Shown one piece after another: positions 565-59,053 of a stretch of 64,000 nt of DNA (within the stretch, counting starts at the first letter, position 1; each line of letters starts with the position of its first letter). The position numbers and the translations under genes are program-made. A model generated the notes under the pieces. It worked only from the letters and a program-made list of their open reading frames with translations. It was not told the origin of the DNA and searched no databases. The DNA comes from Polytrichum commune (Eukaryota; Streptophyta; Polytrichopsida; Polytrichales; Polytrichaceae), in contig OX485803.1 of the NCBI GenBank assembly GCA_950295325.1, positions 41,805,554-41,869,553 of the forward strand, read 5' to 3'.

Positions 565-2328
565 TAAAATACAAGCACTAGTCTCAAAGGGTTTTTTGCT
601 TTTACCTTTGACGTACAGAATAAAGAACCATCTTCAAAGTTGGAAAATAACCTTTTACCTTTGATTTTGTACTTGGATCTTTGACCTTTGATAGGAATAA
701 AGTAAGCCAATTTTCTTATCTTTGAAGTCCACTAGATACACTTTTTAGTGAAGATTCCAAGGTTTTTGGTCATTGTTTACTTACTGATTCATATTCCAAA
801 AACATAGCCAAGTATATAAGTGCTTATGTAATTTTTTTTTACTATTCAACATTTGATTGCATAAATTTAACATCATTAAATAGATATGTTATCTTCCATC
901 ATACTTTAATAGCATATCATTCAAGTAATCACTAAGGATTCATATATTTTCCATAAAATCTAGGTATAGCACAAAGTGTATCTACAAATATGTCCATAGA
1001 ATTGAAGCAACCAAAAAGTCTACTAGATTTTGAAATTATGTCCACATTTACTTAAATGAGAGTTGTTGTTGTTGTTGGTGGTGGGGCTACCGTCCGTTGT
1101 TCCCCACCATTCTTTGCCTGGAACCAAAATAACTTTCAAAGAAAAGAGGTCACATGCGAAAGTTCCCCTCTCAAAATAAAGTCGTAACCAAAGGAGGAAC
1201 TATATGTGAAAAGGTAGGGATACGACAAGTGCAAAAGGTGGGTTTGGTAAGGGGAACCCAGAGAGGTGGCATCGATGGAGCCAAGGTGGTGACGGGTAAT
1301 GTGGGGCTTAAAAGTTATGAGCATGGGCATACATACATATAATGGCTTGCGGGTATGCACATGCAATGGGGGACATATGGTTGCATGGGTGTATAGGGTT
1401 TGGTGGACTAGGATATTAGATCATATGCACAAGTGCAACGGGCTAGGATGGCATGGGTCCAAGCTAGTTATATCATGACTTTTAGCATAGCACATTGAAG
1501 TGCTTGACATGATCTACTTTTTGTTTGAGTATGCAAGATGGCAATGTTATTGAGCATACTAATGCCAAGTGTCATGTGCAAAGTACAAGTTAGTATGTAA
1601 GAGAAAATATCATTGAAAATACTATCAACATGTATCATATTTGATTACGCTAATGGTCAAGTTGTTCATCATTAGTGTAACCTACACATAGACCACATAG
1701 ATTAACAACATTTGCACTCATAGAGCCACAACTAGGCCTTTACCATTGGCTTATTAGACCTTTTAAGGCAAACTAGCTTGGTATGCCCCACCCATAGGCC
1801 CCTAAATGTATCTAAAAAAAATTAAAATGTTATGTTTCACCCATTATATCATAGAAGCCCGCTTTCGGCTTACCAAGTATGGTACATTGAAGTGCTCTTC
1901 TAAAAGCTATGACATAATTAGTGGGCATTGAGAATTTTGAATATTTGTATATGGATATTGAAGGTGGGACATAGCATGTGGTCTTGATATGAAAGAGCAA
2001 ATAAGCCAATGGTAGTACCTAGTAGCATGTTCGCAGCTTCATGAGTGGAGATGCTCTAAGTGACATTATTAGACCAGCAACAATAAATATCATCAATGGC
2101 ATATTGTTCTATAAGTATTTGACGCAAGTTGACATAGATTCTATGTAGATAAAGGGAGTGTCATCTACTCTAGGTATGTAGAATTTCCAATTCCAACACT
2201 TTCTAACATTTTCATACAAATAGAGACATGCATTATCTTACTTAACTACCTGGTAGGTATAGGACCACTCACTAGGCCGTGTTCTAAATATATACATCAA
2301 GTGATCCAAATCACATGGCAAAAGGTTT
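565..2328. other. intergenic, no gene recognised
   Basis: AT-rich DNA with no long open frame. The short frames at 1136-1366 on both strands look like chance. I see no terminal repeats or target duplications here. Confidence 0.4.
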
Positions 2329-3520
2329 GGGCAGACGATATGCTACCCCCTACGAGCTTTTCGGGGGGGAGGGATATTCTGTCAGGGGGCAGCCCCCGAC
2401 ATTTTTTATGCACCCGCCCGAAAATTGCTGCCCGCCCGCCCGATTTCGAAAAAACTAGTGTACTTGCATTTTTGAAGGCTACTTGTCCAGAAATCCCATA
2501 TTGAGTGCACTTCATTTTCAAGGTCTCAAATCCAATATATATGTTCACTTCCATTGAGTAAATAAGCAATTGACTAGATTTCATTTTCAAAGTGAAACCG
2601 TCAATAAAGCATGTAATTAACTTGGAAGTCAAAAATATTACAAAATCCTCATTACCGCTGAGGTTATAATTTTTGTCACTTACAATTGAAAGGGACTTTG
2701 TCATTTTAAAATGAAACTAAAATTTATGATTTTTTATTTTTATTTTTATTTTTTATAATTTATAATATAGTTAATACCTTCTACTATCACAAAGTTTTCA
2801 TATGCATTTAAACTAGTTAAGTAAGATTGAATGCAACTAAGTCTAACATATTTGCGACAATGAAGGACACATGAAAAACGATGAAGGACGATGAAGGACG
2901 ATGAATGACATTCATGTTCTTCACAGTGCTTATGTGTTCCTCGATGTCCAAAGCCGTGTACTACACCCTATACAATGTCCTTCTGTGTTTCTATAATTAG
3001 GATTAATAAGAAATTATTAGACTTAGTTGCATTCAATCTTACTTAACTAGTTTAAATGCATATGAAAACTTTGTGATAGTAGAAGGTATTAAATATATTA
3101 TATATTATAAAATTATAAAAATAAACCATAAATTTTAGTTTCATTTTAGAATGACAAAGTCCCTTTCAATTGTAAGTGACAAAAATTATAACCTCAGCGG
3201 TAATGAGGATTTTGTAATATTTTTGACTTCCAAGTTAATTACATGCTTTATTGACGGTTTCACTTTGAAAATGAAATCTAGTCAATTGCTTATTTACTCA
3301 ATGGAAGTGAACATATATATTGGATTTGAGACCTTGAAAATGAAGTGCACTCAATATGGGATTTCTGGACAAGTAGCCTTCAAAAATGCAAGTACACTAG
3401 TTTTTTCGAAATCGGACGAGCGGGCAGCAGTTTTCGGGCGGGTGCAGAAAAAATGTGGGGAGCTGCCCCCTGACAGAATATCCCCCCGAAAAGCTCGTAG
3501 GGGTAGCCTATCGTCTGCCC
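2329..3520. mobile_element. fold-back element A, long inverted arms
   Basis: The left arm (2329-2846) and right arm (3017-3520) are near-perfect reverse complements around a spacer of about 170 bp. Both ends begin GGGCAGACGATA and continue into a C/G-rich block with AGCTTTTCGGGGGG. The arms encode almost the same chance peptide (133-135 aa, starting MTKSLSIVSDKNYN) on opposite strands, so that peptide is a by-product of the inverted repeat and not a duplicated gene. The spacer holds a short tandem run of GATGAAGGAC. No clear target-site duplication was found. There is no transposase, so the element is non-autonomous. High arm identity suggests recent insertion or arm-to-arm gene conversion. 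Confidence 0.85.
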
Positions 3521-3635
3521 TAATTAAATGCCCACTTAGGGTGACCGGATGACCCTAATAATCTTAGTAGATTCTCCTATGTGACTATTGACTGTCAGAA
3601 ACAGTGACGACCATGGCACGCATATTGAGGTTTCG

Positions 3636-3863: not shown

Positions 3864-4925
3864 TTATGCATATATCTGCTGTGATTCGACATGGGCATTG
3901 ATGATGGCCAGCTTAAGCTCTCGGATATTGAAGGCAGGGTCATTGTAGCGCTTGTCCAGAACGTGAGTGCACCAGAAGATATAACCAGACATTATGAGTT
4001 TCGTATCTTCCACATACCGGTGCACACTAGAGGCCCAAGGCTCCGAGTTCCATGTCACGGGCAGCTGAGTCGACTCTACCTCCTCGAAGAGACAATTGTA
4101 CGAGTTCACCAACTTCACTGCTCTCGATACAGCTTGGGGTTGCAATATGCCTTCAGATTCCATCAAAACCTTGATGAGGTTGCGGGAGTTACCGTTCTCT
4201 TCAGAGACGCTTTCCTTCGGGTAGGAGAAGATATCGTTGACAAAACCCGTCTGAATGCTAGCGATGTCCCTTAGCTTTATCATCGTAGCTTGTTCGCGCA
4301 CCTCGTGTGGTAAAAACTCCGCATTGGAGAACTCCAGTAGGATATACACCGATGGACATCCAGTGTTCTCCAAGCGCATTTGGGTGTACGAGTCCAAGTC
4401 TTGTGAGAATATTCGGTCATTTGCACTGTCGATGAGACTGGCAACACACACTTTGTGATGACCCACGAGTGTATCGAAAAACGCGTTACACCATTCTGAG
4501 GGGGCCAGGCGTCTGAAGTCTCGGCCTGATTCCCACCACATCCTCTCAATGGGAGTAGGATCGACCGGAGGATAATCTTGCCTGATAATCACATTCAATT
4601 TCTCAATAAACTCGCCTATTCTCTGAGGGCTCTCACGGATGCTGCTGGAAATGCCATATTCATTGGCAAGCGAGGCTTCGTCTGGACGATCGAACAGGAC
4701 GTCATCGATGACGTACATGACGGCGAAAAAAATAACCAGGATTGCGAGACGTTCCGCAGTAACAACACCAATGTACAAGTAGCTCATAAGGGAGAGACAC
4801 AAACGACAGTAGGATTCCAGTGACTTGATATTCTGCCATCGCTCCACGAATTCGCGCACTTGTTTGGAAGCTTCGTCTACATGTACACTTTGTGGTGGAG
4901 CTTTGGGAAGGCCCCTGATGAGCAT
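3864..4925 (-). CDS. microbial-type terpene synthase-like protein
   Basis: A single open frame of 353 aa. Class I terpene synthases ionise prenyl diphosphates (geranyl, farnesyl or geranylgeranyl) with Mg2+ in an all-alpha fold. Seen here: the aspartate-rich motif DDVLFD at residues 74-79; the NSE motif NDIFSYPKE at 230-238 with N230, S234 and E238 all present; an Arg near 184, the usual distance upstream of NSE for the diphosphate sensor; and an RY pair at 303-304 that fits the C-terminal RY motif. The protein is about the size of an alpha domain only, without the beta or gamma domains of typical plant terpene synthases. That matches the MTPSL class of non-seed plants, which resembles fungal and bacterial enzymes. 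The ATG is the first in a frame that stays open for about 100 bp upstream, so an upstream exon cannot be excluded. Substrate and product are unknown. Confidence 0.88.
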   Translation of the reverse strand: MLIRGLPKAPPQSVHVDEASKQVREFVERWQNIKSLESYCRLCLSLMSYLYIGVVTAERLAILVIFFAVMYVIDDVLFDRPDEASLANEYGISSSIRESPQRIGEFIEKLNVIIRQDYPPVDPTPIERMWWESGRDFRRLAPSEWCNAFFDTLVGHHKVCVASLIDSANDRIFSQDLDSYTQMRLENTGCPSVYILLEFSNAEFLPHEVREQATMIKLRDIASIQTGFVNDIFSYPKESVSEENGNSRNLIKVLMESEGILQPQAVSRAVKLVNSYNCLFEEVESTQLPVTWNSEPWASSVHRYVEDTKLIMSGYIFWCTHVLDKRYNDPAFNIRELKLAIINAHVESQQIYA

Positions 4926-4999
4926 GGATTGGACAAGGTCGTTTTCGTTGGCTGCGAGAGCGTCAGCTGATGGTGAAAATTCACTGGAAATTTGTCGTT

Positions 5000-5735
5000 G
5001 TTTGCTGTTATCTGTGCATCATGTACACAGGTGAAGGAGGTTATCATGAGCACCTGATCGTGATCAGACAAGAATATGATCTACGAGAAACTTCTGAAGC
5101 TTCGGATGAAACCTCAAATTGGGCTTACAATGTTATCTGTGCATCAGTGTGTACACAAGAAAAGGCGATCAGCACATGCTGATCTGAGACAAGAACAACA
5201 AGGCAGAGTATCTGAAATCCGGGGTGGCAACTATCTGTAGCACCATTTTTAAGAATCTATATTTGGGAGACGCTTTCGCATTACATGACTTTCAAAGAAT
5301 ATAGATTCTAAGAAATTTTATGATTTTCCTCAGAAGAGAAATTCAACACCTAGAGGTGTTGATGGTGACCCCTGTTTATAGAAAAATGGTCTTCCAAAAA
5401 TAACATGTGAAAGTACAAGTTTACCTTGTCTAATTCTAACACAAATCGCATCAATGGATTCCTCTCAATGACCTCTTTCCAAGCATGTATCTTCTCTTTG
5501 TGAAAGAACAAATCATCAGATCACTTAGAAGTACTAGAAGTGATTTAGAAACAACTGTGAATCTACGAAAATGGAGTTGCCACCCCGGGTTCTGAAACTT
5601 CTGAAACCTCAAATTGGGCTTAGAGTGTTGTTATCTGTTCATGATGTACACAAAGAAAAGGAGATGATCAGCACTCTGAAACAAGAAACAAGGCACTTCT
5701 GAAACTTCTGAAACCTCAAAGTGGGCTAGTGGGTA
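5000..5735. repeat. tandem motif upstream of the terpene synthase
   Basis: A unit of about 100-120 bp recurs at about 5003-5110, 5115-5218 and 5590-5735. Its marks are TTATCTGTGCATCATGTACA and GAAACTTCTGAAACCTCAAA, in drifting form. The unit covers the presumed promoter and 5' leader of the terpene synthase. A MITE-like insertion (5219-5588) separates the second and third units. Confidence 0.6.
5219..5588. mobile_element. MITE-like insertion with CCGGGGTGGCAACT ends
   Basis: The ends CCGGGGTGGCAACT and AGTTGCCACCCCGG are perfect inverted repeats. An internal hairpin pairs AGAATCTATATT with AATATAGATTCT near 5250-5310. No coding capacity is present. The flanks share TCTGAAA, but the surrounding tandem repeat already contains this string, so it is weak evidence for a target duplication. 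Superfamily not determined. Confidence 0.55.
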
Positions 5736-17425: not shown

Positions 17426-17651
17426 CTATGATGGGGGAGAACCGGCAGTTAGTTACAAATGAACCAATTGAGTTTGAGAAATAACCGGTTGAAGTTCAAG
17501 ACTACAAGAAAATTACCAATCATTTTGGAGGAATTTATAGAATAAACCCCAATTTAATAAAGGAAAACCGGAGGATGTCAACATGTAACCGGTTGCACTT
17601 GCAAATGCTAGGATCTCAGCCGGTTATGCCCAAAAATCTCCCTGATTACTG
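17426..17651. mobile_element. 226-bp hAT-type MITE with 8-bp TSD
   Basis: Begins CTATGATGGGGGAGAACC and ends AAATCTCCCTGATTACTG, an imperfect terminal inverted repeat. GTCATCAT flanks it on both sides (17418-17425 and 17652-17659), a perfect 8-bp target duplication typical of the hAT superfamily. Inside are several AACCGGTT palindromes near both ends. There is no coding capacity. Confidence 0.9.
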
Positions 17652-21020: not shown

Positions 21021-21246
21021 CAGTGATCGGGGAGATTTTTGGGCATAATCGGTTGAGATCCTAGTGTTTGCAAGTGCAACCGGTTACATGTTGACATCCT
21101 CCAGTTTTTCTTTATTAAATTGGGGTATATTCTATAAATTCCTCTAAAATGATCGGTAATTTTCCTGAAGTCTCGAACTTCAACCGGTTATTTCTCAAAC
21201 TCAACCGGTTTATCTGTAACTAACTGCCGGTTCTCCCCGATCATTG
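21021..21246. mobile_element. 226-bp hAT-type MITE with perfect 8-bp TSD
   Basis: Reference copy. The ends CAGTGATCGGGGAGA and TCTCCCCGATCATTG are inverted repeats with one mismatch in 15. The flanks ACGTCAAT at 21013-21020 and 21247-21254 are identical. Orientation is opposite to the 17426 copy. Four AACCGGTT or near-copies lie in the subterminal parts, which suits repeated transposase binding sites. Confidence 0.92.
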
Positions 21247-30645: not shown

Positions 30646-31405
30646 GGTTTACATCATGGACCATGAAGTCATGACCATGGAAGATGGGCTTTTTCCATGG
30701 TCCGATTTCTTAAAAAATCAATTCACAAAGCCTTTGGGCCCCGCACTAGGTGTAAACCAAATGTGGACCAAGAAGAATGACCATGTACCAAAAAGCAAAT
30801 ATGTTGATTGTTTTGATATATGCCCCCAAAAAGGCAGTTTGGGAAAAAAATTCCAAGTTTGACCATTCTCTTGTCTTCTTTTGTCTTCATCTCCTCTTCC
30901 CCAAATATAATTTTATTTAAAAAATGATTATAACTACATTTTTCTACCATTTGTTTTCTTATACTAGAGGACCTCTTTTGCCTCTCCACCGCAAAACCCG
31001 TTGGACCATGTCAATGGATAATGTAGGCCTTAAAATACGTCGTTTGGGAACCTTGAACTCCATGGTCACTCTAACATTTTTTCCTCGGTGTAAACCGAAG
31101 TGGTCCTGGGACGAGTTCAACAACCAATCACATAGTTTACAGGGCCTTGGGACGTATGGTTGGGGAGAACCGGCAGTTAGTTACATATGAACCGGTTGAG
31201 TTTGAAATATAATTGGTTGAAGTTCAAGACTGCAGGAAAATTACTGATCATTGTTGAAGAATTTATAGAATATATCCCCATTTAATGAAGGAAAACCGGA
31301 GGATGTCAACATGTAACTGGTTGGACTTGCAAACACTAGGGTCTCAACCAGTTATGCCCAAAAATCTCCCCAATCACTGCTTGAGACGACCTCATGGTTT
31401 AAACA
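30646..31405. mobile_element. TIR element 'F', copy 1, interrupted by a hAT-type MITE
   Basis: Homologous throughout to 41461-41980. The left end GGTTTACATCATGGACCATG corresponds to the inverse of the other copy's right end (CTTCATGGTCCATGGTGTAA). Near its right end this copy is interrupted by the MITE at 31154-31379, whereas copy 2 is uninterrupted there. No coding frame is shared. Confidence 0.65.
31154..31379. mobile_element. 226-bp hAT-type MITE nested in element F
   Basis: Begins GTATGGTTGGGGAGAACC and ends AAATCTCCCCAATCACTG. Flanks are CTTGGGAC (31146-31153) and CTTGAGAC (31380-31387), an 8-bp duplication with one change. The related empty site at about 41937-41955 reads CCCTTGGGAAGACTTCATGG. 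Confidence 0.88.
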
Positions 31406-38163: not shown

Positions 38164-38337
38164 CTACGATTGGGGAGAACCGGCAGTTAGTTACAAAACT
38201 ACCGGATGATTTTGAGAAATAACCGGTGGAAGTTCAAGACTGCAGGATAATTACCGAGCATGTTAGAGGAATTTATAGAATATACCCCAACTTAATAAAG
38301 GAAAACCGGAGGATGTCAACATGTTACCGGTTGGCCC
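38164..38337. repeat. hAT-type MITE, truncated copy
   Basis: Begins CTACGATTGGGGAGAACCGG in 17426-copy orientation and breaks off at about 38337 in CATGTTACCGGTTGG. The last 50 bp or so are missing. Confidence 0.8.
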
Positions 38338-50631: not shown

Positions 50632-53600
50632 ATGGGTATGGCGGACTTCACCGAGCCATTGATCAATGGAGAACAACGACTAGCTTCGGCTTCGGCCTTA
50701 GTGATCCCGGAAGCTTACACGGCCGTCAACCCCGAAGGCCATGACCCATGTGGGACGGGAGTTAAAAGATGGGCGTGGGGGGAGATTCGGGAGCAATGTT
50801 GGCTGTCGGCTCCCATCATGGCCATGTACATGTTACAACATATGGTGGGGTTGTCCGGGAGCTTATTTGTGGGTCACCTTGGCGCATTCCCTCTTGCGGC
50901 ACTTTCGTTGGCCAACTCCTTTAGTAACATGAGTGGCTACTATGTACTGGTACGTCCAAATCTTTAACCCCCCCAAAAAAGTCTAAGATATGCGGGCCAA
51001 TTTTTTCTAATCGAACAGCTATATTTGAGTGTTGTGTGGTTAGGTGTGGATCTAAGAACGGACACCAAAAAAACATGTGTTGAAAAGAGTTTGGACTCAT
51101 TGACGGTATGAAATTGGCAATCATGTCACACTAATTACGTGTTTTGCATCCTAAGAGAAGTGGATGCAGTGCTTAAAGTATCCATTCAAATTCAAGGCCT
51201 GGTTACCTCATATTATGATATTCTATACAGTAAGAGGAAATAAAATACTAGAAATCCAGGTTAGTTGTCTTGAGTGACCAATTCAATGTTCATTTATATG
51301 GTTTTGATCGAGGTTTAATCCTCCTGTCATCTCGGAAGTTCTTTCTTGAGTGGGATACTAGGGTGTTGTTGAAAAAAATGCAAAGCATTGTGACAATTTC
51401 GAGTCCTTTAGTTGTGAGGTAGCTAGTTCAGGAAGCCTTCTTGGGATGTCCATTGTAAGGTAATTCAGACACCACAGATACTTACCAGCATCAACAAGCA
51501 AGCATATTAAGATGATGATTGTAGTTCCTAAATTTCATGCCGAAATGACCCATCTATAGTAATCGCAATGTCAATATAGCCAAAGAGGAAGAAGGAATTG
51601 TAGAGCAATTCAGACACCACAGATGCCTGCCAAAAGCAGAGTAGATCACGATTAGAGAGAGAGATGACGCCACCTCGATGACGTAAACGATCCGGATCGA
51701 GGTGAGTTTACGGATCACGGCTGAGGGACTAGGTGTACTGCCTCCCGTCAGCGTTGGTCACGATTACAATTCTAGATTCATGTCAAAATGTTTGAATTAA
51801 AACGGGTTTACGGAGAATAACTACGGAACTGGAAGGCTTACTACCTCTTATCAGAGGTAAATCCACGGCAAGGCCTACTCCCTCTTGTCATAGGTGGTCC
51901 CGAGTTTAATTCTAATTTCGTGACGAAATGTTCGAATTCAAGCGGGTTTGCAGAGCATGGCCGAGGGACAAGGCCTACTACTGCATCCTGGCGAACACGG
52001 TCCATCCTGTTGGAACATCTCTAATCAATTCATGTGACATTGTTTGAACCCGTCCGTCTCAATCGACAGATGGGACTCGCGGACGCGCTGGAGACGTTGT
52101 GCGGCCAAGCGTACGGCGCGAAGGAGTACCGCATGTTGGGCATCTACTTGCAGCGCGCGTTCATCATCCTCGCCATCGCCGCCATGCCCATCAGCCTGCT
52201 GTGGTTCACCCTGAGCCAGATCCTGCTGGCGGTCGGCGAGGACGCGGACCTCGCGCGCGCGGCGCAGACCTACATGATATGGATGCTACCCAGCTTGTTC
52301 GCCTATGTCCTGCTGCCGCCGCTCATCAAGTTCTTCCAGATGCAGCGCGCGGTGTACGAGCTCCTGTGCTGCTCCGGGGTCGCGGTGGCCGTGCAAATCC
52401 CTCTCTGCTGGCTCATCATCGACAAATTGAGCATCGGGTTCGTCGGGGCGGCGATCGCCGGCAACATCGCCATCGTCGTGCAGCTGGGTTGCCTGTGGGC
52501 CTTCGTCTCCTTCTCGCCCAAGTTTGAGAAGACGTTCCCGGCCTTCTCGTGGGAGGTGTTTGAGGACTTCGGAGAGTTCTTGAGGCTCGCCATTCCGTCC
52601 GCCACTATGTCTTGGTGCGTATCTATGTGGACCCCCAACTTACAATGCATGGCTAGCTATAAGGTGGATGGCTCTCGTAAGTGGCTCTAATATTCGATCA
52701 CATAGCAAACATCATAACGACACATGTTTAAAAGAGATTGGGCTACGTTTTCAAATATCATTAACTCCTCGATCTACACTCAACAATAGTGAACATAATT
52801 GAGAGGGCCTATGTATCCAATTAAGATATCAACAAACATGCATTTCCGATAACCATAGGTACATTAAGGGAGGCCTGATTTTCAAACCGGTTTTTGTAGA
52901 TGTTTTATAGTAGATTTGTTAATGCAACACGCGTTTTGTTGTGTAAATCTAGTATGTAAAAGTGGGAGAACATGAAAAACAAATCAAATAACACCCACAT
53001 ACCTTATTAGAGGTGGTCACTAAATGGGCCAAAGTTTGGTAACCAACCCGAACTAGCCACATACAATAAGGCGTTTAGGCTCTAAAATGAGCTCAAGTTT
53101 GTTATTGGTAGGATAGCTAAGCGGAACTAGTCACACGTGCAAGATAATACTAGGGCAAAGCAAGTCTCTTGCAACCAACCGCTTGTTTGTGAAATCTTCT
53201 ATACTATATAGGGTCATCAATGTGACTAACACTAATTTCTCTAAAATTTCATAAATATCGATAATGTTACTCTCACTATGATTTAGAATTGTAATATTGA
53301 ACTAAAATTACTAGAGAGTATAAGTCACAAAATCCGCTCACACAGTTCCACATGTCTACACGTGCCAAAAAGTGAAGTTGACTTTGTCATAGTAACTTAG
53401 AATTGCATGTCAACAAAGTAAGCCACTCTATTCAAAAGGTCACGCTAATGACCTTATTTAATGTAGTGATTGATGGATGTGACGTAATAGACCTTTGTTA
53501 TAAGATTTTGGAAAAGTAGTTGTGAAACTACATAACGAATGCAATCCAACGATGCCATGAATAGAATATTAGCATATGTGAATAGCTTCATTATTTTTCT

Positions 53601-56600
53601 ATGTCGATTTTTAACATCTAATTCCAATAGAAGAAAAATTCCCCTTAACAACATCCTTATCTAGAGAAGTAAAATTTCATAGCAAAGTGCCACTACATCG
53701 ATGGAAAGACAACTACATTAATAGACTCACGAAAACACATTCTCTTCCTCCTTTGTAATTCTCTCATCCTCTCTCCCTTTCTTCAAGTTACCTTATGAGA
53801 TCTTGGGCCTCCCCTTATCCTCATGTAGACTTTGTTTGAGTAAGCTCTAGGATGTTTTAAGAGAACGACCATGTGTTCCAAGAAAGTGATAAAATAATCA
53901 ATTAGAATAAAGACATGCAAACTTCTAGTACAACAAAACACAAGAATCATGGCATTGACAACCTTGATTGTCAAAGGCATCCTTCCATACGATGTCAATG
54001 GTCGTGATTATCCAAGGACACAATCTAATAGGTGCATGCCACAATGCTTTTATCCTCATCCCTAGTTTTTACATCCCACATCACCCATTGTTGCTATTTA
54101 GTTTCTAATCAATTAAGGGACTCCTCAAAGAGAACCCCAAAAGATACTTATATATCATTTTTATGTAAGAATTTACTTTGTAAAAGTATTATTAAGTAGC
54201 ACACAAAAATGATTATGACAAGGTAATGCAATTATTGCTACATTAATCAAAATTTATGATGTAATTTCAAAATATTTTATTTTATTAACATAATAATGTA
54301 GCCTTTAGAAGTTTATAATGAAGGCCCACATATTGAACAATGTTGTGCATTTCTCTTCATGGTGGGTTGCAGCTTGGAGCACTTCTCATTTGAAATTCTC
54401 ACATTGCTGGCTGGGTTGCTTCCCAACTCTAAACTTGAAATTGCAACATTTACCATCAGGTCATACCCTTTTCTAAACTTGCCATGTCTTCTCCAGCAAT
54501 GATACTTCTGTGATGAAAACTTGGGGACTCATTAGTTGCATGTTATGTTGGTAAACTTCTCATTAGCAGACCAGTAAACCAATCCATATTTTTTTGAGCC
54601 CATAAAATATCTATATATTACCTATTCTATTTTCCATTTTGTGAGGTGCATGGCTCATACTCATGCTTCACATCTTCGGTCACAAAAGCTAAACCTTGAT
54701 GATGTTGTGACTTTTTGCAGTATGGCACTTCTGTCATTGGCAAACATTGTTGCTGTGGCTCTCGGTGTAGCCGCAAGGTAAGAAAATCTAAAGCTTGTCT
54801 CATGAAATCCGTTTGAAATAAGTGATGTTTTCATAACTATAAAATTCTAGAATGATACTTGAATATTCTTATAGGAAGTGAAAGTAGTTTGCTCTAATTA
54901 ATTTTTGCGTAGTAACAAGGACCCATCAACTCATCAACTAGAATCATAAGAAGAGATTTAGAAACAATTGCTTGAAAGGGGAGACACAACCACCCTCCAA
55001 ACTCCGCCGCTAAAGCAGGGTTGTCACAGTGTGGTGATAAATTGTACTCTAATCATTCTTTGCGTAGTAACAAGGACCCATCAACTCATCAACTAGAATC
55101 ATAAGAAGAGATTTAGAAACAGTTGCTTGAAAGGGGAGACACAAGCGCCCTCCAAACTCCACCGCTAAAGCGGGGTTGTCACGGTGTGGTGATAAATTGT
55201 ACTCTAATCATTCTTTGCATAGTAACAAAGGACCCATCAACTCATCAACTGGAATCATAAGAAGAGATTTAGAAACAATTGTTTGAAAGGGGAGACACAA
55301 CCACCCTCCAAACTCGGCCGCTAAAGCGAGGTTGTCACGGTGTGGATGGTGATGAATTGGGCGAGTGCAGTGTTCGAGTGTCGAATGAACTGGGAGCCGG
55401 GAAAGCGAATGCAGCACGGTTGTCGGTGGCGGTGTCAATGGGGATCGGTTTGGTGAATGGCTTGCTGATGGCGGCTCTCATTCTTCTCCTTCGACACGTG
55501 TGGGGCTGGACCTTCTGCAACGAGCAGGCAGTGGTGGACCGAGTGGCCAGCACCGCACCCTACCTGGCCATGCTGGCCTTCCTCTACGGATGCCAATGCA
55601 TACTTTCAGGTGAGAATCAGGGACTGGGGAGGTTTTTGCACATAATCGGTTGAGAATCTCCTAGTGTTTGCAAAGTCCAACCGGTTAGATTTAGGGGAAG
55701 AAACTCATACGCTCATTCCTTGTTGGATGGCTAAACCCTTGTCTCCAAGGAACCAATGTACGGGTTGTTTCGCCCCAGCCAACCGGTTACATGTTGACAT
55801 CCTTCGGTTCTTATGTATTAAATTGGGGTGTTTTCTATAAATTCCTCTAAAATGAGTAGTGATTTTCCTGCAGTCTTGAACTTCAACCGGTTATTTCTCA
55901 AATTCGACCGATTCATTTGTAACTAACTGTCGGTTCTCCCCGATCATAGGTGAGAACTTGGGAAGAAGACGCGATGACAACACTTCTAAATAGGGTCGTT
56001 CATGTGGCTAACACTAATTTCTCTGGAATTTGACATTTTTGTATCACTAGTAGAAAAGTACGCCCAAAAAAAGACCAGCCTGATCTGCGGTCGCTACATG
56101 GCTATAGATATTTCTTTCATTTTGCGACTGAAATTTTAGGAATTTTGGGGGCGTGTAATGTACCGTCGGAAAGGTATTTTCAAGACCTTTCCAACGGTAT
56201 ATTAAACGCCCCAAAAATTCCTAAAATTTCAGTCGCTAGACCAAAAAACAGATCTGCAGTCGTTTAGAGAGTGCACATCAGGCTGTGTATAATACTTACT
56301 TATTTATTGCAATAGAGTTGTAATAGTTAATACTTTAGGAAAATAAGTTCATGCAGTACTTAAGTAAGTAGACACACTCACACAGTTCCACGAGTGTCCA
56401 CATGCCAGAGTACTGTGAAATTGACTGTATCTTAGTAACTTGGAATCACAAATCGAGAAAGTAAGTGACACTGTTCGAAAAGTCACACTAATAACCCTAT
56501 TTGGTGTAAACAATTTACGGTATTTTAGTGTCATATGGTATTTTACATCACTGAGGTTCACTTTTCTAATGACACTTCTTATGAACAAGTTGACAAGCAT

Positions 56601-59053
56601 TGTCGTGGATGATATGATATCCATGCCAATTATTATAATAAAACTTTGGCATATTTTTCATCCAAACAATGTTGTAATGAGACAGTATGATGGAATCGAT
56701 GTTTGAAATTTGCATGAAAAATCACGTAGTGAGGGACAGTCATTGCAACACTGTGAATCTATTATGCCCCAAAAAAAAATTTAAACAAGGAACGACATAT
56801 AATGTTAGGTTTACATTTGGTGTTGGTGACCAGTGTCCGGGAAGTTTTTGGGCATAGTTGGTCAAGATCCTAGTGATTCTAAATCCAATCGGTTATATGT
56901 TGACATCTTCTGGTTTTGCTTTCACTCATTTGAGATATATTCCATAGATTCCTCCAAAATGTTTGGTAATTCTCCGGAAGTCTCCAACTTCAACCGGTTA
57001 TTTTTCAAACTCAACCGGTTCATCTGTAACTAACCACCGGTTCTCCCCGGACAGTGTTGGTGACACTAGACGGGCGGTTTACGATTGATATCGAGCAAGA
57101 CAAATAGAATTCGTGACACTAAACACAATGTTTAGTGCACCTATTCAGGAGTTACATAGTGTGCTTAAGAAGTGTAATCGTGTTTTCTCACTGTTAATGG
57201 TAATGTGGTGCAGGGGTGGTGAGAGGAATCGGATGGCAGAGAGTGGGTGCATTTGCCAACCTTGGTGCCTACTATGGTGTCGGCCTGCCCATGACCTTTG
57301 TTTTTGTCTTTGTTTTCCATTTTGATACACGGGTAAGTATACAGTATCCTTGCACTCTTCCCATTCTTCTACCTGACATTGCAACACCTCAACAAGCTGC
57401 CTAAAAATCCAACATAGCAATAATCCGGACACTCATATTCGAGTGGTGTGTGGGTTAAGTGTATAATTAGTATATATTATTCTAGGCTCAATACACTTGT
57501 TAACCCAATTAGTTCGTGTTACTATTCGGAGTTGGATGCAAGCACAGTGAAGTGGACAACTTCTGACCCCTCCCTAGGTACTAATGAAAGTGATTCGAAA
57601 CTATACACTAACTTTGAATTTTGTGAAGGATTGATTCATAGACGTTCAACAAACATATTGATCTACAAAGCCAAGCAATTTATGTTAACCAAAAAAATTC
57701 CAAGAAAAGTGTACGTATTTAAGAAGACGGTGCAAGTGGAGTGCAAGTAGGTGATATTGAACAAGTAATTATCTAAAAAAATTCTAATGTAAAGTAAATT
57801 ATATTAAATTGATGGGTTTTCTACAAAGTTTTGTGATGGTGACCTCAAGTATATAATGAATTCAAGGAATATGGAAAAAAAAACCCAAACTCCAAACTCC
57901 AAATTCCAAATTCGTAACTGGGATAATCAATGTAGTCAACATAACTGGGGGAACAAAACATCCTTAGGACATGCCGTAGACATGACATTGACATTTTTTA
58001 ATTTCAATGCTCATGATTGTCCAAGGATTACACACATGACCTAATAGGCCCCTACCCCAACTCTTGTAGCCTAATCCCTGGCTTTCATACCCGTCATTGC
58101 CCTCATATGTGAGCCACACATTGAAATTGTTTGTACCTTTGCAGCAGATTTGCTGATGTTTTTGCAGCAGATTTGCTGATGTTTTTGCAGCAGATTTACT
58201 GATGATTTCAACATCGTGTGCATCACAGGGGTTGTTACTTGGCATGGGCTGTGGCCTGGTGACGCAATTGGTGACTCTCACAATCGTCATCCTCCACGCG
58301 GATTGGGACATTCTGGTATTGTGACACAAATCTCATGCCACCAGCAAAATTTCATTCCGATAAATTGTTGATTAGGTCTTTTAGCCTCGGTTTGACATCA
58401 AGCATCACAAATGCAAGTGACCAGCATTTAATGTTCAGGGTTTTAATGTCATTTAGATCTAACTCAAACTTTGCCTGACAATCGATTCAATGTCTGTTCA
58501 TCAACTCATACTTCAACCTTGTAGGTCTTGCAACTTTGAAGTACTGAAACAAAAGATTAGGTCATACAACCCTATGAATTTAGAGGTTTGTGATGAACTG
58601 TGTGAATCAGCCTCCTTCGAAAAAATTCCAAGCTAATCATGAAACTCATCGCTTCCAATCATTTGGAAACCCTTCCAAGTGGAACTCAAGCTGATTGAAA
58701 ATGGGGATGGGCTATGTTGGTGTTTTCTGCAGGCCAAGGAAGCATTGTTGCGGTCAAATTCCTACAAATCGCGATTACCCACCACGGGGTCACCTTTTCT
58801 AACGAAGGTTTGATTCATTCTGAACCAAAGGGTCAAAAGAAAAAATAGCATCATGAGAATCAACCAAATATTTCTGCACCTTCAAACAAGTTTGTCCAAA
58901 TTGTGTCCCAGGTTGCTCATGAATAGAGTGAAAATTCAGTTTACTAAAATTTCTTTGGAACTCATACATCAAGGCCTGTCTTTGCAGATACACGAAGACG
59001 AGAAGAGTCCTGCAGTATCTGATCAACAGAGTGCCCCAGCTCAAGTGGAGTGA
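50632..59053 (+). CDS. MATE/DTX family efflux transporter
   Basis: Nine exons join in frame with GT-AG introns: 50632-50949, 52070-52614, 54373-54459, 54721-54777, 55371-55609, 57214-57332, 58229-58315, 58733-58807, 58988-59053. The product is 530 aa, a normal MATE length. MATE proteins are 12-helix antiporters that export organic cations, flavonoids, citrate or hormones using H+ or Na+. Seen: a cytosolic N-terminus of about 45 aa; FVGHLG in the first helix pair; MGLADALETLCGQAYGAKEY (107-126), the family hallmark; RVSNELGAGKANAARLSV from residue 338, the second-repeat hallmark; and long hydrophobic helices throughout. The start could be Met1 or Met3 (MGMADF). The last donor (AAG|GTTTGA) is weak; without it the protein ends LTKV. 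Exon 2 is strongly GC-rich, unlike exons 3, 4 and 6-9. Introns hold many MITEs. Substrate and membrane are not predictable. Confidence 0.92.
51660..52010. repeat. degenerate tandem units in MATE intron 1
   Basis: A phrase of the type GGGTTTACGGA, then GAGGGACAAGGCCTACT and AATTCTAATTTCGTGACGAA, recurs in drifting form about three times (around 51700, 51800 and 51940), just before exon 2. Local GC content rises toward the exon. Confidence 0.4.
53205..53460. mobile_element. MITE in MATE intron 2 (AGGGTCAT ends)
   Basis: The left end TATATAGGGTCATCAATGTG and inverted right end TAAATAAGGTCATTAGCGTG are imperfect TIRs. A homologous element lies at 55988-56502 in intron 5 (CACACAGTTCCAC and ACTAACACTAATTTCTCT are shared). 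TSD unclear. Confidence 0.6.
54892..55346. repeat. 155-bp tandem repeat in MATE intron 4
   Basis: Units start at 54892, 55047 and 55202 with an exact 155-bp period (2.9 copies). Each has CTCTAAT, GTAACAAGGACCCATCAACT and CTAAAGC, then GGTTGTCACGGTGTGG. The third unit runs to within about 25 bp of the exon 5 acceptor (GCGAGTGCAG at 55361-55370). Confidence 0.9.
55618..55949. mobile_element. hAT-type MITE inserted at the exon 5 splice donor
   Basis: Begins CAGGGACTGGGGAGGTTTTT and ends TCTCCCCGATCATAG. Flanks: GTGAGAAT (55610-55617) and GTGAGAAC (55950-55957), an 8-bp duplication with one change. The left copy is the first 8 bases of intron 5 (CAG|GTGAGA). Because the element ends in AG, the right copy also reads AG|GTGAGA. 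The MITE is 332 bp because it carries an extra segment of about 106 bp flanked by CCAACCGGTTA repeats. Confidence 0.9.
55988..56502. mobile_element. MITE in MATE intron 5 with a nested palindrome
   Basis: Second copy of the 53205 family. The left AAATAGGGTCGTTCATGTGG and inverted right AAATAGGGTTATTAGTGTGA form the TIR. It is longer than copy 1 because a palindromic element (about 56081-56287) sits inside. Confidence 0.65.
56081..56287. mobile_element. palindromic mini-element with long hairpin
   Basis: Outer repeats CAGCCTGAT and ATCAGGCTG enclose a near-perfect hairpin. Arms 56124-56175 and 56185-56236 (52 nt each, core GCGACTGAAATTTTAGGAAT) pair around a 9-nt loop with about five mismatches. 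It is transcribed as part of MATE intron 5. Confidence 0.75.
56505..57136. mobile_element. palindromic MITE family P copy, split by a hAT-type MITE
   Basis: The left end near GTAAACAATTTACGGTATTT and the right end near GACACTAAACACAATGTTTA match family P (46101-46476), with the 226-bp MITE at 56831-57056 inside. Lies in intron 5, ending about 80 bp before exon 6. Confidence 0.65.
56831..57056. mobile_element. 226-bp hAT-type MITE with perfect 8-bp TSD (nested)
   Basis: Ends CAGTGTCCGGGAAG and CTCCCCGGACAGTG. TTGGTGAC flanks both sides (56823-56830 and 57057-57064). The unoccupied sequence is visible at 46396-46405 in family P (GCTGGTGACACT). Confidence 0.92.
57588..57875. repeat. dispersed repeat, copy 2 (partner at 7758)
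   Basis: Homologous to 7758-8045. It lies in MATE intron 6, between one-sided matches to the 33162 MITE family (about 57494-57530, CCCAATTAGTTCGTGTTACT; about 57915-57935, GGGATAATCAATGTAG). This could be a larger element with those ends. Confidence 0.55.
58138..58206. repeat. three 23-bp repeats before exon 7
   Basis: TTTGCAGCAGATTTGCTGATGT (last base T not shown) is repeated three times in tandem in intron 6, the third copy with one change. Each unit has TTTGCAG, an acceptor-like string, 20-90 bp upstream of the real acceptor CATCACAG (58221-58228). Confidence 0.85.

Follow-up and report, generated by a model that had tools for sequence, protein, structure and literature searches.

What becomes of an intron when a transposable element takes its splice donor as a target site and leaves a copy of that donor on either side of itself? 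The question is raised by a locus in a 64,000-nucleotide stretch of Polytrichum commune DNA (contig OX485803.1; this whole analysed stretch is called the window below, and all positions refer to it). Here a non-autonomous hAT element, present in many copies in the window, inserted exactly behind the last base of exon 5 of a predicted transporter gene. Its target consisted of bases +1 to +8 of intron 5, and the donor was thereby duplicated. This insertion into the donor, with duplication of that donor, is well supported by the sequence features described below.

The host gene (50632-59053, + strand) is predicted to encode a MATE transporter of the DETOXIFICATION type with 530 amino acids. A hand-made model joins nine coding exons into one open frame (50632-50949, 52070-52614, 54373-54459, 54721-54777, 55371-55609, 57214-57332, 58229-58315, 58733-58807 and 58988-59053). 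The product contains a Pfam MatE domain (8e-56), and its best solved relative is Arabidopsis DETOXIFICATION 14 (5y50; E 1.4e-92, residues 56-491), giving a near-full-length match to a plant DTX. Exon 5 (55371-55609, + strand) ends in ...TTTCAG, the AG acceptor of intron 5 lies at 57212-57213 (+ strand), and exon 6 begins at 57214. The donor at 55610 is fixed in this predicted model by the reading frame together with homology across exons 5 and 6, because the alignment to 5y50 is gapless over their junction (ILSG-VVRG). The acceptor at 57213, already proposed in an earlier note on this DNA, agrees with the same frame and alignment. A tblastn search with the MATE protein (E up to 10) found no second MATE gene in the window that might serve as an empty-site paralog; nine rows fell on the gene's own exons, and two others had E values of 2.6 and 8.8.

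Intron 5 (55610-57213) consists mostly of repeats, with 1131 of its 1604 bases matching other parts of the window (E up to 1e-3). It includes a foldback element at about 56045-56290, which starts CACTAGTAGAAAA, has an inverted self-match at 56076-56285 and which we take to be CACTA-like. A tandem array (54892-55345; 2.9 copies of a 155-bp unit) ends 25 bases upstream of exon 5. The predicted acceptors of introns 4 and 5 are weak, with 6/18 and 7/18 pyrimidines, respectively; the acceptor of intron 4 lies behind the tandem array, and given its low pyrimidine content, splicing of that intron may be weak. Just upstream of exon 7, 3.1 copies of the 23-bp repeat TTTGCAGCAGATTTGCTGATGTT (58138-58208) multiply TTTGCAG and CTGAT, which are acceptor- and branch-like motifs, ahead of the acceptor at 58228.

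The element is a 332-bp hAT-type MITE at 55618-55949 (+ strand), with CAGGGACTGGGGAG at its start and CTCCCCGATCATAG at its end. On either side of it stand the 8-bp repeats GTGAGAAT (55610-55617) and GTGAGAAC (55950-55957), which correspond to bases +1 to +8 of intron 5. The two copies are identical over +1 to +7 and differ at +8 (T in the first, C in the second), giving 7/8 identity. Target-site copy 1 is thereby the proximal donor of intron 5 and target-site copy 2 a putative distal donor, both on the + strand. The earlier note had placed the 8-bp target on the first eight bases of the intron and had pointed out that the element ends in AG, leaving AG^GTGAGA on both sides (^ marks the boundary). 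Both statements hold: the coordinates are exact, the ends are matched by four other copies, and the last bases of the element, directly before target-site copy 2, are TAG. At the presumed empty site, CAG^GTGAGAA would occur once, with TTGGGAAG-like sequence behind it and no MITE.

A self-comparison located ten other places in the window that match this MITE with E values of 1.5e-7 or lower; the count excludes one weak match (57802-57827, E 0.058). Four of the copies are complete, measure 226 bp each, end like the MITE at the donor and carry their own 8-bp repeats. They lie at 17426-17651 (- strand; ATGATGAC, 8/8), 21021-21246 (+ strand; ACGTCAAT, 8/8), 31154-31379 (- strand; GTCTCAAG/GTCCCAAG, 7/8) and 56831-57056 (+ strand), the last being a second member of the family within intron 5, flanked by TTGGTGAC at 56823-56830 and 57057-57064 (8/8). 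Repeats were assigned to complete copies, with truncated or diverged ones left aside, and all five complete copies show the 8-bp duplication typical of hAT elements (7/8, 8/8, 8/8, 8/8, 7/8). Short terminal inverted repeats, a CAG-type start, the lack of coding capacity and the many copies likewise characterise a hAT MITE. The inverted repeats are seen in the copy at 21021-21246, as CAGTGATCGGGGAG against the reverse complement of CTCCCCGATCATTG; the ends of the MITE at the donor are partly decayed.

The earlier description of the element was borne out but had overlooked a nested insert of about 102 bp (55677-55778, no strand assigned), delimited by two CCAACCGGTTA direct repeats spaced 102 bp apart with 91 bp between them. 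The 332 bp are thus a 226-bp family unit plus the nested insert plus small differences. The insert is absent from the four other complete copies, and the truncated copy at 38164-38335 does not include that place. Over the last 170-171 bases, the MITE differs from the six-copy majority at 14 of 171 places, within a spread of 7/170 to 28/171 over the six copies, so that the insertion is probably not recent.

As to the surroundings of the four 226-bp copies, one is in intron 5, as described above, and one in an open frame that yields no convincing gene when the flanks are joined. The latter (17426-17651, - strand) splits an open frame of 112 aa, which is of unknown kind and has the same orientation as the copy. 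It was considered as a spliced intron and rejected: the joined flanks give six more codons and then a stop, and the frame has no Pfam match. Among other open frames in the window, a 384-aa frame at 3864-5018 (- strand) matches Terpene_syn_C_2 (3e-25) and presumably represents a microbial-type terpene synthase; such genes are known in plants from non-seed lineages. The translations of the frames 2297-2716 (- strand) and 3139-3552 (+ strand) are almost the same for most of their length, and the two frames face opposite ways, as in an inverted duplication or two arms of one element; the former has no Pfam match.

A highly improbable alternative is that the 8-bp match at the donor arose by chance or local duplication and that the MITE inserted in some other way. 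The match is 7/8 and not 8/8, which leaves some room for it. The ends of the element, however, were taken from family copies, independently of the locus at 55610-55957, so that the match at 55610/55950 is a test and not a fit, and 8-bp repeats are found in all 4 of the other complete copies. At least 7/8 identity was reached in 232 of 400000 draws of random 8-mer pairs from the window and in 53 of 63652 8-mers exactly 340 apart, i.e. in about 0.06-0.08% of pairs in both controls, and on these grounds chance was rejected.

The position of the insertion fits a target preference described for the hAT transposase Hermes, for which the consulted parts of two sources give 8-bp targets of the form nTnnnnAn (PMC10368747, PMC2803484). 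This pattern is present at 4 of the 5 complete MITE copies, including 55618-55949, against 9.3% of window positions; it is the preference of a fly element and may not be that of plant hAT transposons. GT donors have T at +2, and A at +7 also occurs in 4 of the 8 predicted MATE donors, including the one that was hit, which again compares with the 9.3% of window positions that carry both bases. A GT donor with A at +7 fits nTnnnnAn in the same register, and hAT MITEs are therefore predicted at donors in that register above chance, an enrichment that one locus cannot show.

The two donors, CAG^GTGAGA and TAG^GTGAGA, stand 340 bp apart, and YAGGTGAGA occurs at these two places only on both strands of the 64 kb. 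The broader pattern YAG^GTRAG is found at 6 places on both strands, two of which are again the proximal and distal donors. Pairing with the 5' end sequence of U1 was used to compare donors. It gave -11.1 kcal/mol for the proximal CAG^GTGAGAAT and -9.5 kcal/mol for the distal TAG^GTGAGAAC; values for the gene's eight predicted donors lie between -4.7 and -13.3, and the distal value equals that of donor 4. Among 3564 GT sites on the + strand, the proximal donor ranks within the best 5 and the distal within the best 27, while among the 120 GT sites of intron 5 they rank first and second. The earlier note had called them two equal-looking donors 340 bp apart. The spacing stands, but the equality does not, as they differ at -3 (C proximal, T distal) and +8 (T/C) in addition to U1 pairing. 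Because the CAG of the exon stays with the proximal donor, which is also the stronger of the two, that donor is most likely still in use, and the MITE would be left in the intron. The gene would then still make its normal protein.

Use of the distal donor would keep 340 nt (1 mod 3) in the mRNA and lose the frame. After codon 415, this reading adds 14 codons, the first being the normal glycine, and reaches a TGA at 55651-55653 (+ strand), which would also end translation upon intron retention. The predicted protein is truncated after residue 429 of 530, 81% along. The stop lies 296 nt before the exon junction. Under the 50-55 nt rule for nonsense-mediated decay (NMD), this distance makes the distal-donor mRNA a probable NMD target, and mRNAs carrying the MITE should be a minor, NMD-prone fraction. 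Truncation in the last third, anticipated earlier for distal use, is thereby placed more exactly, after residue 429; taking it as the sole consequence overlooked the acceptor-like end of the element.

The 3' end of the MITE contains a branch-point-like CTAAC at 55923-55927 (+ strand), whose second A, at 55926, precedes the final G of the terminal TAG (55947-55949, + strand) by 23 nt. The CTAAC is accompanied by 12/18 pyrimidines and, with no further AG in the preceding 44 bases, by a final ATAG. In the family alignment, CTAAC is present in 6 of 6 copies and the terminal TAG in 3 of 6, which indicates that the acceptor-like features were brought in by the element and did not take shape at this locus. 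Target-site copy 1 and the MITE together form a GT...AG unit of 340 nt that is followed directly by a complete donor; removal of this unit would give exon 5^GTGAGAACTTGGG, the presumed pre-insertion sequence. The arrangement ATAG^GTGAGA with CTAAC upstream places acceptor-like sequence directly before a donor, as in a recursive splice site. An acceptor rule, which was set after the MITE site had been seen and which therefore describes the site and does not test it, selects 47 of the 7189 AGs that the two strands of the window contain. It also selects 2 of the 8 predicted acceptors of the MATE gene (introns 6 and 7, through CTGAT); CTAAC was not found in the 46 bases checked before each of the eight.

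We consider it likely that the main product is the normal mRNA, with the proximal donor spliced either straight to exon 6 or by way of two steps. Some considerations weigh against this expectation: one of the eight target-site bases differs, the gene model is hand-made, the distal donor is no weaker than donor 4, and the predicted acceptors of introns 4 and 5 are weak. Moreover, use of the MITE end as an acceptor followed by a failed second step would retain the rest of intron 5. It is unlikely, though conceivable, that a sizeable share of the mRNA uses the junction 55949^57214 and keeps the 340 nt, with NMD lowering expression or a 429-aa protein lacking its last part. The rank of the distal donor among the GT sites of intron 5 speaks for such a share, but U1 pairing and the base at -3 are both better at the proximal donor, and the broken frame with its early stop also tells against it.

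A recursive route is possible, if on balance somewhat doubtful, at a detectable share of transcripts. Here 55609 would join 55950, removing the 340-nt GT...AG intron, and the regenerated donor would then join 57214; the MITE would act like an Introner that landed by chance on an existing donor. Some transcripts may thus first lose repeat 1 and the MITE through the acceptor-like end of the element, restoring exon 5^GTGAGAAC, which could then be spliced to exon 6 to give the same mRNA as direct proximal splicing. The composition of the MITE 3' end, the rarity of the donor patterns in the window and the restoration of the presumed pre-insertion sequence are consistent with this route, and Introners that carry a 3' splice site and recruit a 5' splice site from the target-site copy have been described (PMC9860276, in the part consulted). 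On the other hand, the acceptor rule is post hoc and 6 of the 8 predicted real acceptors do without it, the pyrimidine stretch is C-rich (U = 5/18), and half of the aligned copies lack the terminal TAG. The predicted RNA fold at this locus is no better than shuffles (z -1.08; 15/100 as good). It has the GT of each donor in paired positions, and the CUCCCC stretch as well, which is unfavourable, but leaves CTAAC free, so that no splicing route is favoured. An RNA hairpin was accordingly not relied on as a splicing device at this MITE; the copy at 21021-21246 folds far better than its shuffles (z -6.97, 0/200). The normal mRNA, two-step removal and a sizeable distal isoform are not mutually exclusive.

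Recursive splice sites with a zero-length exon, in which an acceptor is followed directly by a donor (YAG^GTRAG), are known from Drosophila; the present site differs in that it goes back to one inserted transposon, which landed at the first donor of an intron of 1.6 kb, and its use is a prediction. As far as the consulted part of the Introner survey describes them (PMC9860276), Introners of the DNA-transposon type are likewise non-autonomous elements with inverted ends and target-site copies, and their removal leaves the transcript unchanged. They differ in that they form new introns in exons and occur as multi-copy introns, whereas the MITE at 55618-55949 sits at an existing (predicted) donor and no other copy here was found to be an intron; the same part of the survey reports none in land plants. 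The maize elements Ds and Ds1, of the Ac/Ds (hAT) system, share the 8-bp target-site copies, the splice sites near the ends and products that are often NMD targets, but according to the portion consulted their donors lie inside the element (PMC5432752), while the second donor here is a copy of the gene's own. Stwintrons also undergo two consecutive splicing steps in which the inner rebuilds the outer donor (PMC12403724, PMC9024468, both as partially consulted). Their inner intron splits the donor, whereas a complete donor stands on both sides of this MITE; no outer donor, branch or acceptor is interrupted, and the inner step would be optional. The consulted parts of several reports document that plant hAT elements and MITEs can provide splice sites (PMC5432752, PMC6593561, PMC12595863). 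A literature search, with subscription journals mostly outside its scope, found no report of a target-site duplication copying a plant donor among the titles and beginnings of abstracts listed, which is weak evidence of novelty. Donor duplication combined with an acceptor-like element end is a variant of known TE-derived splice sites and of Introners.

How new introns and recursive splice sites originate is an open question, and at this locus a single insertion has given a second donor with an acceptor-like end before it. Tentatively, and as a rather doubtful reading, a hAT MITE may in one step have made a recursively spliced twin intron out of an ordinary intron of a plant gene. On this reading, the target preference nTnnnnAn fits the donor in register, the target copy supplies the second donor, and the CTAAC...TAG end serves as the acceptor. 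If only the proximal donor is used directly, the locus is an ordinary tolerated insertion. If the twin-intron reading is true, the insertion would be scarless at the RNA level and so tolerated, and plant MITEs could in this way give rise to recursive splicing and to Introner-like introns.
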